Below, piece by piece: positions 19,845-23,911 of a DNA stretch of 64,000 nucleotides (positions are counted from its first letter, which is position 1; every line of letters begins with the position of its first letter). This DNA is from Hyphomonas jannaschiana VP2. Its GTDB lineage: Bacteria > Pseudomonadota > Alphaproteobacteria > Caulobacterales > Hyphomonadaceae. The notes beneath the pieces are model-generated. The model made no database searches. It saw only the letters and a list, made by a program, of their open reading frames with translations, and had not been told where the DNA came from. The stretch covers positions 310,001 to 374,000 of the forward strand of contig NZ_ARYJ01000002.1 in NCBI RefSeq assembly GCF_000685215.1, given 5' to 3'. The translations under genes were made by a program, and so were the position numbers.

Positions 19845-21725
19845 CTAGGCGTTGGCTTCCAGTGCTTCGGCGGCTTCGAGCCAGGCGTGTTCGGCCTCTT
19901 CAGCGGTTTCGGCGTGGGTGGCGCGCGACTTCAGAAGCTTGTCCAGTTCGTCCGGCGGGGGTGTGCCTTCGGCCAGTTTCGCGTCGATCTTTGCAATGGC
20001 GGCGTTCGCCTTTTCCATCCGCTCTTCAGCTTCCCGCGCCTTCTTTTTCAGGGCGGAAAGGCGCTTCTTGTCTTCCGGTGAGGCTGCGGGTTTGGGCGCA
20101 TCCTGTTTCGGCTTTGTCTCTTTTGACTTTGCCTCTTTCGCCTCGGCGCGGTCGGCCTTCATGACGAGGGCGCGGTAGTCTTCGAGGTCGCCATCATAGG
20201 TCGTCGCCCGGCCATCCTTGACCAGCCACAGGCGATCTGCCGTCGCTTCGGCGAGGTAGACATCGTGGGTGATCAGCAGGACGGCGCCGGGGAAGTCGTT
20301 CAGCGCGTAGATCAGCGCCTCGCGGCTGTCGATGTCGAGGTGAGAGGTCGGCTCGTCGAGGATCAGGATGTGCGGCGCAGAGTGGGACATGAGCCCCAGC
20401 AGCAGGCGCACTTTCTCGCCGCCCGAAAGCTTCTCGACTTTCGTCTCGACCTTCTCGGCTGAGAACCCCATGCCAGCAGCCACGGCACGCACTTTCGCGG
20501 GCGGCGTATCTGGCGGGAGGAGGCGTCGGACATGGTCGAGAACGCTGTCGCCTTCGGAGAGTTCGTCCAGCTGGTCTTGCGAAAAATAGCCAATGCGGAC
20601 AGCCTTGGGTGTCACGCGTTTGCCGGCCATAAGCGGCAGGCGTTCGGCGATGGATTTCACCAGCGTCGTCTTGCCCTGCCCATTGGCGCCGACAATGGCA
20701 ATGCGGTCGTCCGGGTCGAGGCGCAAATTTACCTTGGACAGGATGCGCGCGCCTTCGCCATAGCCAAGTTCGGCATCCTTAAGCTCCAGCATGGGCGGGG
20801 CCAGCTTGTCTGCGGGCGGCGGGAAGTGGAATGGCGTCGTGCGGTCGGCGACGGGGATGGAGATGTCCTGCATCTTCTCCAGCATTTTGATGCGCGACTG
20901 GGCCTGCCTGGCCTTGGAGGCCTTGGCACGGAACCGGTCGACGAAGCTTTGCAGGTGGGCGCGTTCCTTGGCTTGCTTCGCCTGCTGGGATTCCAGCTGG
21001 GCGAGCTTCGCCGCGCGCAGTTTCAGCCAGTCATCATAACCGCCGGGCGTGATGGAGAGTTTGCGGTGTTCCAGTGCCATTGTGTGCGTGACGCAGCGGT
21101 TCAGCATTTCGCGGTCGTGGCTGACGATCAGGACCGTGTACGGATATTTCCGGATATAGGTCTCCAGCCAGGCCGCGCCTTCGAGGTCCAGATAGTTGGT
21201 CGGCTCGTCCAGCAGCAGGAAATCCGGCTGCGAGAACAGGACGCCTGCGATGGCCGCGCGCATGCGCCAGCCGCCGGAGAATTCCTTCGTGGCGCGGCCA
21301 AGGTCTTCATCCGAAAAACCAAGCCCGTGCAGCACTTCGGCGGCGCGCGCCTCTGCAGACCAGGCATCAATGTCCATCAGGCGTTCATGGATCTCGCCGA
21401 TCCGGTTCGGATCCGTCGCGGTCTCGGCTTCCTGCATGAGGGCGTGGCGCTCTGTGTCAGCGGCGAGCACGACGTCCAGCACAGTCTCATCCGTCGGGGC
21501 GACTTCCTGCGCGACCCAGCCGAGGCGCGCGCCGGTGTTCAGGCGGATCGCGGCATCATTGGTCGGGTGCTCCACATCCTCCCGGATCAGGCGCAGCAGC
21601 GTCGACTTGCCGGTACCGTTGCGGCCGACAAGGCCCACTTTCCAGCCGGCAGAGATCTGCGCCGAGGCAGATTCGAACAGGGGCCGGGCTTCGACCTGAA
21701 AATCGAGATTGGTAATGGTGAGCAT
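19845..21725 (-). CDS. ABC-F family ATPase (Uup/YheS-like)
   Basis: A 626-aa soluble protein with two ABC domains and no membrane spans. First domain: Walker A GRNGTGKST near residue 36, signature FSGGWRMR, Walker B LLLDEPTNYLDLE. Second domain: GANGQGKTT, LSGGEKVRL and LILDEPTSHLDID. The linker is charged and helical (QQAKQAKERAHLQSF). The last 90 residues form a Lys/Glu-rich coiled coil, as in Uup and YheS. ABC-F proteins act on the ribosome, resolving stalled or misfolded states, and some protect from antibiotics. A gene-free region with structured repeats lies upstream of its start at 21725. Confidence 0.93.
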   Translation of the reverse strand: MLTITNLDFQVEARPLFESASAQISAGWKVGLVGRNGTGKSTLLRLIREDVEHPTNDAAIRLNTGARLGWVAQEVAPTDETVLDVVLAADTERHALMQEAETATDPNRIGEIHERLMDIDAWSAEARAAEVLHGLGFSDEDLGRATKEFSGGWRMRAAIAGVLFSQPDFLLLDEPTNYLDLEGAAWLETYIRKYPYTVLIVSHDREMLNRCVTHTMALEHRKLSITPGGYDDWLKLRAAKLAQLESQQAKQAKERAHLQSFVDRFRAKASKARQAQSRIKMLEKMQDISIPVADRTTPFHFPPPADKLAPPMLELKDAELGYGEGARILSKVNLRLDPDDRIAIVGANGQGKTTLVKSIAERLPLMAGKRVTPKAVRIGYFSQDQLDELSEGDSVLDHVRRLLPPDTPPAKVRAVAAGMGFSAEKVETKVEKLSGGEKVRLLLGLMSHSAPHILILDEPTSHLDIDSREALIYALNDFPGAVLLITHDVYLAEATADRLWLVKDGRATTYDGDLEDYRALVMKADRAEAKEAKSKETKPKQDAPKPAASPEDKKRLSALKKKAREAEERMEKANAAIAKIDAKLAEGTPPPDELDKLLKSRATHAETAEEAEHAWLEAAEALEANA

Positions 21726-21802
21726 GCGCGGGTGTGTAACCGGGCCGGAGGTGAAAGCAAGTGCAGGTTACGGCTCCCCGAAAAGCTGGCCGGGGAAAGG
21801 GG

Positions 21803-21902
21803 CCCGCCATGCCAGACAGTCCGGGGGGCAGGACCAGGCATGGCGGGTATTTCGCTGTCCCCAAGTGCGGTGGGAGAATGGGGAAATGGTATCCACAGCG
21901 AA
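21803..21902. repeat. Hairpin element, unit 1
   Basis: Hairpin A: CCCGCCATGCC (21803-21813) with GGCATGGCGGG (21837-21847), 11 bp. Hairpin B: TTCGCTGT (21851-21858) with ACAGCGAA (21895-21902), 8 bp. Its loop B differs from the other units (CCCCAAGTG instead of the TTTCAG motif), so this is the most diverged copy. Confidence 0.8.
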
Positions 21903-21973
21903 GAGGCCCAAAGTGCGGGCTTCACAGACCAGACGTACCGATCCCCGGCTTTATCCAAAAAAGTTCAGCGGCG

Positions 21974-22062
21974 CTGAAACAGGGACGCCCGCCGGGCCGG
22001 AACAGGGGTAGGTCGACGCGGCGGGCGGTTCGCGATTGGCTTTTCAGGGGGCCGGCGCGAAC
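21974..22062. repeat. Hairpin element, unit 2
   Basis: Hairpin A: CGCCCGCCG (21986-21994) with CGGCGGGCG (22019-22027), 9 bp. Hairpin B: GTTCGCG (22028-22034) with CGCGAAC (22056-22062), 7 bp. In addition CTGAAA (21974-21979), just upstream, is complementary to TTTCAG (22042-22047) in loop B, which would form a pseudoknot in RNA. Confidence 0.8.
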
Positions 22063-22127
22063 GGAACTCATACCGATGACGCGGCTGCGCGCTGGTTTAT
22101 CCAGATTTGTCCGGCTGGGAGAGAAAA

Positions 22128-22222
22128 CCCGCCATGTCATCTATCGCGGGGGGGGGGGGGGACAGGATGACATGGCGGGCGGTTCGCCGTTCGGTTTCCA
22201 GGGGGGAAGAAACGCTTCGAAC
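22128..22222. repeat. Hairpin element, unit 3, with 14-G tract in loop A
   Basis: Hairpin A: CCCGCCATGTCATC (22128-22141) with GATGACATGGCGGG (22166-22179), 14 bp. Its loop contains an uninterrupted run of 14 G at 22148-22161. Hairpin B is the weakest: GTTCG (22182-22186) with CGAAC (22218-22222), 5 bp. Confidence 0.8.
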
Positions 22223-22330
22223 GGGACCTCTCTCGTGACACTGATATGGGGTGACAGGGGCCGGTGTCCATGACCCTCACGCGTTCGTGAGAGGTGAAAT
22301 TCCGGTAAGGAATCCGGGGCGGAAAAGGCT

Positions 22331-22438
22331 CTGAAACAGAGGTGCCCGCCATACTGTCTGCTGGGTCAGGGGGGAGGGAGGCGAGACAGTATGGCGGGCA
22401 GTTCGCTGCATCGTTTCAGGGAGGAATCTACAGCGAAC
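22331..22438. repeat. Hairpin element, unit 4
   Basis: Hairpin A: GCCCGCCATACTGTCT (22344-22359) with AGACAGTATGGCGGGC (22384-22399), 16 perfect pairs. Hairpin B: GTTCGCTG (22401-22408) with CAGCGAAC (22431-22438), 8 bp. CTGAAAC (22331-22337) is complementary to GTTTCAG (22413-22419) in loop B, as in unit 2. Confidence 0.85.
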
Positions 22439-22551
22439 GGGACCGGTTGCGGCGAACCGCTTACCGGTCTAACGCGGTACGCTGCGCTTCCCGTCGCAGG
22501 AATCTCAATCGTGGCGGAAGTTTAATCTGAAGGTCGCGTCGACAACGCCGC

Positions 22552-23040
22552 TTACTTGATCGCTTGCAGATCGTCCCAGTACTCGATGGGAGGAACATCG
22601 CGGATCATTTCTTCAACCATCGCAGTGAACCCGGCATTGAAATACCCGGAGGTGATGCCCCAGAGCGCGCGCCCGCGCTCGGTGCCGAGCACGAAAAAGA
22701 TCACGCCGCGATAGGTTTCCCAGGACTCCTTGTCCATGGCGCCGGATTTGTATTGCAGCCATTCGTACTCGCGTGCGCGCATCTGGCCGATCATCCAGAA
22801 GATCGCCTTGGTTTTCTCTTCGAAACTCGGCGTTTCGACTTGTGACATGATCCTGCCGAGTTCCGGAAACTCGACGAATTTGTAGACGCCGGTCTGGTCG
22901 TTCGCGAGCTGCGTCTGCCGTGACTCCGAGCGCAACAGCACGGTACCCTGACGGACCTGTATGGTCAGGAAGATCAGGGTGGCAGCAACGACGACCACAC
23001 CGGCGATCTGGGCGATATAGGCAATCTGCTCAAGGGTCAT
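22552..23040 (-). CDS. Hypothetical membrane-anchored protein, 162 aa
   Basis: Not recognised by name; it is like small proteins common in marine proteobacteria. An N-terminal membrane helix (IAGVVVVAATLIFLTIQV, about residues 12-29) is followed by a soluble helical domain with aromatic-rich helices (IFWMIGQMRAREYEWLQY; YRGVIFFVLGTERGRALW) and an end PPIEYWDDLQAIK. This topology suggests an inner-membrane anchor with a cytoplasmic or periplasmic helical bundle. The next gene upstream on the same strand (23120) has a comparable layout, and the two may form a unit with the hairpin array downstream. Confidence 0.65.
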   Translation of the reverse strand: MTLEQIAYIAQIAGVVVVAATLIFLTIQVRQGTVLLRSESRQTQLANDQTGVYKFVEFPELGRIMSQVETPSFEEKTKAIFWMIGQMRAREYEWLQYKSGAMDKESWETYRGVIFFVLGTERGRALWGITSGYFNAGFTAMVEEMIRDVPPIEYWDDLQAIK

Positions 23041-23119: not shown

Positions 23120-23911
23120 TCATGGCGCGGCATCGCTCTCGCGGCGTGAGCCTGACGCGCCCAGTTCCTTGGCCAGCTCAGTATCCAGCACGGTCAGGAC
23201 CGCAATGCGGTCTTCGTACCGGTCGAGGAATGACTCCAAGCGTGCGATGTTGTCGCTGTACTCGCTGAGGAGGCCTTTATTCCCGCGTATCTGGTCGATG
23301 TCACAACTATATCGCCACACCAGGCCTTTGTCGTCACGGCCCGCACTTGGAGAAACGTAGCCTGCATCTTCAGCACGCCCCACTTCGAGCCAGATGGCGT
23401 CCGGATACCGGGTGTGAAGCCGGAAGAGTTCGCTGACCGCTTCTGCCCGCGCAGCACGGGAACGTTCCTGCACAACAGCATAGTCGCGGAGGGCCGCCTT
23501 CACGGAAGGGTTAGAAATGAGGTCAAACCGGCCGGAGGCAAGAAGTTCATCAAGGCTCGACAATGCTTCGGTGGGCGAGGGCATCCAGTGAGAGACGAGC
23601 AGAGCCCAGCACTCTTCATTGGTGAGTGGCCGTGACGGCGCGAGCGAGAACATGACGGAATTAGCGTCTGTGGCCAGCCCAATGCGAGGGCTATGTGCGG
23701 CGAGCTCTTTTTTCTGTGTGTCCAGAAGTGAGCGGGTCTCCTCCTGCAGGCGCAAGAGCAGGACCTGCTCGCTGTTTCGCTCAACCCGCGCCGCGTTCCA
23801 GTTGTTGACCTGCAGACCGATGAACACGCCGAAGACAACAATCAGCGTCTCGATGACGACGGTGAACCAGTCCTGCTTGCGGAGCGCGGTGGTGAGACGG
23901 CGGAGGATCAT
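23120..23911 (-). CDS. DUF6090-like membrane-anchored protein, 263 aa
   Basis: Starts MILRRLTTALRKQDW and has one membrane helix (FTVVIETLIVVFGVFIGLQV, about residues 16-35) followed by NNWNAAR, a pattern seen in the DUF6090 family and its relatives. The remainder is a long helical domain with an ERNSEQVLLLRLQEETRSLL coiled-coil start. Family function is unknown. It lies 79 bp upstream of the other membrane-anchored unknown gene and probably shares its transcript. Confidence 0.7.
   Translation of the reverse strand: MILRRLTTALRKQDWFTVVIETLIVVFGVFIGLQVNNWNAARVERNSEQVLLLRLQEETRSLLDTQKKELAAHSPRIGLATDANSVMFSLAPSRPLTNEECWALLVSHWMPSPTEALSSLDELLASGRFDLISNPSVKAALRDYAVVQERSRAARAEAVSELFRLHTRYPDAIWLEVGRAEDAGYVSPSAGRDDKGLVWRYSCDIDQIRGNKGLLSEYSDNIARLESFLDRYEDRIAVLTVLDTELAKELGASGSRRESDAAP

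Follow-up and report, generated by a model that had tools for sequence, protein, structure and literature searches.

A tandem array of two-hairpin elements in Hyphomonas jannaschiana that probably encodes small RNAs with C-rich, anti-Shine-Dalgarno-like loops

The window, i.e., the whole 64,000-nucleotide stretch of Hyphomonas jannaschiana VP2 DNA that was analysed, contains a gene-free gap of 826 bp (21726-22551) in which four imperfect two-hairpin repeats lie in tandem. These units are read here on the minus strand, so that unit 4 comes first and unit 1 last; bits refer to covariance-model matches, and fold z values compare the minus-strand fold with dinucleotide shuffles.

22552..23040, minus strand: upstream neighbour, gene for a 162-aa protein of unknown family
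22344..22442, minus strand: unit 4, first unit on this strand; 77.8 bits, fold z -9.7
about 22438-22401, minus strand: unit 4 hairpin B, loop GATTCCTCCCTGAAACGA
arms 22384-22400 and 22343-22359, minus strand: unit 4 hairpin A, loop CGCCTCCCTCCCCCCTGACCCAGC
22127..22226, minus strand: unit 3; 80.8 bits, fold z -8.3
about 22222-22182, minus strand: unit 3 hairpin B, with CTTCCCCCCTGGAAA within its loop
arms 22166-22179 and 22128-22141, minus strand: unit 3 hairpin A, with a C14 run within its loop
21987..22066, minus strand: unit 2, the most divergent copy; 56 bits, fold z -3.3
about 22062-22028, minus strand: unit 2 hairpin B, loop CCCCCTGAAAA
about 21986-22027, minus strand: unit 2 hairpin A, with CTACCCCTGTTCC within its loop
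21802..21906, minus strand: unit 1, closest to the ABC-F gene; 60.4 bits, fold z -4.3
about 21902-21851, minus strand: unit 1 hairpin B, long C-rich loop TTTCCCCATTCTCCCACCGCAC
about 21847-21803, minus strand: unit 1 hairpin A, loop TGGTCCTGCCCCCCGGACTGTCT
19845..21725, minus strand: downstream neighbour, ABC-F ATPase gene; nearest NCBIfam model PRK10636 (YheS-like), matched below its cut-off

On the minus strand, the units follow a plan of TCCC, hairpin B (GTTCGC...GCGAAC), N, hairpin A (GCCCGCCAT...ATGGCGGGC) and a T/C tract, making hairpin B the 5' hairpin and hairpin A the 3' one. Both present C-rich loops on this strand (CCUCCCUGAAA, CCCCCCUGGAA, CCCCCUGA), with CCTCCC, CCCCCC and similar variants; such loops, first noticed as G-rich on the plus strand, are found in every unit, including those of single-copy relatives (GTCCCCCCCTCCCCCAAG, CCGTCCCCCCCCCAGC). 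The hairpin A loop of unit 3 holds a homopolymer of 14 G on the plus strand (C14 on the minus strand; 22150-22163), and as sister species have shorter C runs in this hairpin, the tract could be prone to slippage. Every species that has unit 2 contains TGGATAA(A) in both spacers flanking it, toward unit 3 and toward unit 1 (21930-22110 in the window, minus strand); this sequence is reminiscent of a partial DnaA box or of an AT-rich promoter element. The ABC-F neighbour is syntenic in every unit-bearing species that could be checked. On the other flank, proteins of only distant similarity (33-43% identity) take the place of a 263-aa neighbour of unknown family (23120-23911) in some close species, and yet the 162-aa protein next to it is conserved there.

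A sequence-only reading of this DNA had described four two-hairpin units with compensatory stem changes, and both observations hold up against relatives. In an alignment of 20 units made with MAFFT and not fitted to structure, 14 of 25 pairs were changed on both sides, amounting to 36 such cells vs 16.5 in shuffles (0/500 reaching 36), with slid-partner controls giving 3-17 double-changed cells. A larger alignment, with 36 distinct sequences among its 37 units, showed 16/25 pairs changed on both sides and 69 double-changed cells vs 27.3 in shuffles (0/500); as it was fitted to structure, the 20-unit result is the fairer test of covariation. Two adjacent hairpins are present in 37/37 units. By this comparative measure, the stems are under selection for structure beyond chance. 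The same reading had proposed a pseudoknot between TTTCAG in loop B and an upstream CTGAAA in units 2 and 4. The complementarity exists in letters; however, the loop half is a constant CTGAAA (minus strand) whereas its partner varies among sister species, and the pseudoknot is therefore rejected as not conserved. The complementarity in these two units is instead accounted for by extra small terminator-like hairpins, in which the non-loop half sits in the window and a few relatives.

A first covariance model was built from the 20-unit alignment, and an improved model (with E-values that are rough by construction) was later used on 42 Hyphomonas genomes, 15 of which carry the element, thereby providing further copies with preserved stems. 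Six species have four units, four have two and five have one; the two-unit count may be low with respect to G044, in which two units lie at the ends of separate contigs. Upstream of the orthologous ABC-F gene, four units occur in the same order in G004, G006, G007 and G019, with four also in G052, such that the order of all four is kept in five close species. Under strict filters that can lose weak copies, 299 genomes of the order yielded no unit outside Hyphomonas, and a pattern scan of 84,980 genomes returned 32 stretches, with the second hairpin A arm only in Hyphomonas-type records. A unit match identical to that of G044 was seen in JACXUV010000043.1 from the bin 'Rhodobacterales bacterium DE15.006', which is probably Hyphomonas. 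Identity within orthologous unit positions is 82-86% (units 3 and 4), compared to 60% between units 3 and 4; orthologous positions are thus closer to one another than are positions within one genome, and duplication therefore preceded the split of the four-copy species.

Several features around the units are consistent with promoters and 3' ends on the minus strand.

22277..22290, minus strand: palindrome TCACGAACGCGTGA upstream of unit 3, kept upstream of all single-copy units
22244..22272, minus strand: predicted unit 3 promoter core, CATGGAC (22272-22266), N16, CCATAT (22249-22244)
22321..22341, minus strand: small terminator-like hairpin after unit 4, CTCTG-TTT-CAGAG then CCTTTTCC
21958..21978, minus strand: terminator-like hairpin after unit 2, TTCAGC-GCC-GCTGAA then CTTTTTT

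Fourteen upstream regions, nine from unit-3 copies and five from single copies, can be aligned and have ATTACC...TCAC..TCACGAASGCGTGA in common; the shared block comprises (i) an ATTACC(C/G)(A/G)AA(A/C)TTCACC-like stretch, (ii) the palindrome TCACGAA(C/G)GCGTGA and (iii) a -35/-10-like core at fixed distance. The palindrome TCACGAACGCGTGA is a probable activator site; its single exact copy in the whole genome speaks against a regulon via TCACGAASGCGTGA. The predicted core, CATGGAC-N16-CCATAT, fits sigma-70 or, less well, a heat-shock sigma factor, and has CTTGGAC-N16-CTATAT as its counterpart in Hyphomonas sp. L-53-1-40 (G003). As a generic E. coli-type sigma-70 scan flagged no promoter, the predicted unit 3 core included, the promoter assignment rests on conservation and the alphaproteobacterial signature. 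The conserved block upstream of unit 4 is a different one, and units 1, 2 and 4 display no clear promoter. Since the single copies have the upstream block of unit 3, this unit probably keeps the ancestral regulation, to the extent that a short alignment allows. The ancestor was probably a lone copy under an activated sigma-70-type promoter of its own, from which tandem duplication would have given rise to two and four copies as stems diverged and loops varied.

Assignment of the units to the minus strand rests on several modest, concordant signs. Minus-strand sequence 3' of hairpin A contains 185 T and 179 C among 444 bases, compared to 93 T of 444 for plus-strand sequence 3' of hairpin B. The extra small hairpin with a T run is present at unit 4 in 6/9 species, and the one at unit 2 is clear in 2/6; relative to the T7 tail of alphaR8 (see below), the 3' tails of the array are weak terminators. 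In a strand-neutral walk, G-T pairs outnumber A-C mismatches by 18 to 8, an excess as expected for minus-strand RNA, with the pair columns alone giving 16 vs 11 and hence a modest strand signal. Both strands of the units fold well, with the minus-strand z stronger than the plus-strand z in each. The earlier suggestion of tandem structured RNAs is well supported, as judged from covariation, orthologues, promoter-like conservation and tail composition.

Building on what is directly observed (structure conservation, orthologues, the copy-number series, the conserved upstream region and the C-rich loops), we favour the reading, with a probability of about 0.74, that the array encodes tandem trans-acting small RNAs with C-rich anti-Shine-Dalgarno loops, running leftward. 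The four genes would each give rise to a small regulatory RNA of ~100 nt from the minus strand, in which two adjacent hairpins keep the C-rich, anti-Shine-Dalgarno-like loops single-stranded, and which would end in hairpin A and its T/C tract or in a short extra hairpin. The loops would bind G-rich stretches in the Shine-Dalgarno/5'UTR parts of several mRNAs by base-pairing, Hfq probably being involved, thus blocking translation or altering stability; Hfq is encoded in the genome. Conserved single-stranded C-rich loops on variable stems mark the anti-Shine-Dalgarno small RNAs of alphaproteobacteria (PMC3927594, PMC7143759, PMC10746234, PMC10253847, PMC5869019, PMC12559287), for which reason base-pairing with G-rich ribosome-binding regions of mRNAs is the most likely function of the units. 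A genome search for targets of the form TTCAGGGRGG-N3-13-ATG returned 4 matches vs 1 for a control pattern and supports no target; one of the 4, a short-chain dehydrogenase (C8:38953), has a convincing start codon but is too weak to claim.

The initial statement that no described family has such a plan was too strong. The cuckoo/alpha-r14 family of Rhizobiales (NfeR1, SmelA075/SmelA099), with its CCUCCUCCC loops (PMC3927594, PMC7143759, PMC10746234), likewise places several hairpins side by side, with a C-rich loop of the anti-Shine-Dalgarno type on each, and has variable stems with conserved loops, several copies per genome and a sigma-70-type promoter with a conserved stretch upstream. The units display the 2-4 adjacent hairpins per RNA by which cuckoo RNAs are recognized; however, their loops carry CCUCCC(C)UGAAA, CCCCCCUGG or simple runs of C in place of CCUCCUCCC, and CCTCCTCCC is absent from every loop of every unit. 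Each unit also has two main hairpins, and the array occupies another genomic place. Its promoter plan resembles that of NfeR1, which has CTTAGAC-N17-CTATAT and a conserved activator stretch upstream (PMC10746234), but the palindrome TCACGAASGCGTGA differs from the LsrB box (TGCA-N6-GCAT) reported for that RNA. A search elsewhere in the genome for a true cuckoo RNA (CCUCCUCCC plus a second CCTCC) gave two places, no excess over a reversed control (2+2), and these were rejected by eye.

Four homologous small RNAs also form a cluster in Rhodobacter sphaeroides, where they are known as CcsR1-4 (RSs0680a-d), with RSs0680a containing two stem-loops that each bear an anti-Shine-Dalgarno motif, as in the array (PMC3927594, PMC10253847). 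In that cluster, a DUF1127 gene (ccaF1) is transcribed together with CcsR1-4, which are processed behind it, whereas unit 3 seems to be served by a promoter of its own, and no DUF1127 gene (PF06568) was found in 21 genomes comprising this one and relatives from Hyphomonas and the order. The shared CcsR precursor has an RpoHI/RpoHII promoter; the unit 3 core, as noted above, fits sigma-70 or, less well, a heat-shock sigma factor. Caulobacter GsrN shares a C-rich 5' loop, which pairs with G-rich mRNA leaders (PMC5869019), but unlike the array it is a single-copy RNA with a sigma-EcfG promoter; no EcfG-type promoter (GGAAC-N16/17-CGTT) lies within 130 nt upstream of any unit.

A further close system is that of the alphaR8/suhB RNAs (RF00519), which include MmgR and SisA-D of Caulobacter and have an anti-Shine-Dalgarno core, UUUCCUCCCU, and sibling copies (PMC12559287). 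A genuine alphaR8 lies elsewhere, far from the array, in 42/42 Hyphomonas genomes, as exemplified by this one and G006:

G000:C26:1490-1563 (this genome) and G006:C1:587654-587727: alphaR8/suhB RNA (RF00519), seed GTTTCCTCCCTTTGAC

The array resembles alphaR8 in having sibling copies and in that loop B of unit 4 (UUUCCUCCCC/UUCCUCCCU) nearly repeats the core UUUCCUCCCU and the Hyphomonas alphaR8 seed GUUUCCUCCCUUUGAC, reading UUUCCUCCCCUGAAAA in some species and UUCCUCCCUGAAA in the window. Unit 4 thus has 8-9 of 10 core bases, carried in a hairpin loop, whereas alphaR8 leaves its core single-stranded, with a weak hairpin on one side and a U-tailed terminator on the other; the other units are without the core, and the array gave no match to RF00519 even at E 5. 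As unit 4 loop B nearly repeats the alphaR8 seed, an overlap between the targets of the two is suggested. Across Rfam 15, no array match exceeded a gathering score (best 20.3 and 18.2 bits vs cut-offs of 60 and 46), the sole match in the window being a tRNA. With no CCUCCUCCC loop, no DUF1127, no RF00519 match and no EcfG promoter, the units are filed, on these sequence criteria, as a new family that would work like the C-rich-loop small RNAs while being a member of none of those tested.

Another reading, raised in the sequence-only account, is that the ABC-F (YheS-like) gene has the units as its long, structured 5' leader, in which they would act in cis, e.g., as attenuators or processing/stability hairpins. 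Array and gene share one strand, 48-165 nt separate the end of the last hairpin from the ABC-F ATG, and in 13/15 species no gene was found between the two. However, in the remaining two (G020 and G003), two genes intervene between the single unit and ABC-F, and the element is therefore not simply or obligatorily an ABC-F leader. Relatives G009, G013 and G017 have ABC-F proteins 86-88% identical yet are without the element, with coding sequence reaching the ABC-F gene. Moreover, unit number varies from 1 to 4, loops are conserved as well as stems (as is typical of pairing seeds), and unit 3 and the single copies have their own promoter-like region. A leader role is thus not supported as a general rule, and we regard it as unlikely; the array may still be co-transcribed into ABC-F in some of the 13 syntenic species.

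Sequestration of SisA-D by CrfA in Caulobacter (PMC12559287) provides a model for a plus-strand RNA whose G-rich loops would act as a sponge for C-rich small RNAs such as alphaR8. On that strand, unit 4 loop B (CAGGGAGGAATC) is complementary to 9/10 bases of the alphaR8 core UUUCCUCCCU (PMC12559287), and the ability of both strands to fold well agrees with such a role. The promoter-like conservation, T tracts, G-T/A-C asymmetry and stronger fold z in every unit all point to the minus strand, however, and the single-copy loops are without AGGGAGGAA, making a sponge in place of the C-rich small RNAs quite improbable. That the locus would yield both, with a plus-strand RNA sequestering alphaR8 and the array's own C-rich small RNAs, is a remoter prospect that we would hold very lightly; if true, one tandem array would encode anti-Shine-Dalgarno small RNAs and their sponge on opposite strands.

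The long palindromes and intergenic setting might also befit elements acting as DNA, be they protein-bound hairpins, as the sequence-only account had offered, or a REP/BIME-type repeat. Membership of the latter entails many dispersed copies, whereas each genome has one locus (G044 giving two hits on separate contigs), dispersed copies are absent, and plasmid and phage collections contain no match to the units; the array is therefore no dispersed repeat. Protein-bound DNA hairpins are in turn disfavoured by the strand-asymmetry of loops, tails and upstream motif, and orthologues conserve loop sequences, such that we give a DNA-level role very little credence. Lastly, sequestration of CsrA via the GGA motifs present in some plus-strand loops is ruled out, barring an unrelated analogue, by the absence of CsrA from the genome, as judged by a family search that detects it in E. 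coli, B. subtilis and T. maritima.

Ultimately, the tandem anti-Shine-Dalgarno small RNAs proposed here appear to constitute an undescribed RNA family confined to one genus, the design itself being known in related bacteria, and would enlarge the set of small RNAs from alphaproteobacteria in which variable hairpins display anti-Shine-Dalgarno loops. The 1-2-4 copy series within a single genus provides a natural experiment in the multiplication and divergence of sibling small RNAs, and the near-repeat of the ancient alphaR8 seed would render regulon overlap between unrelated small RNA families testable in the same genomes.
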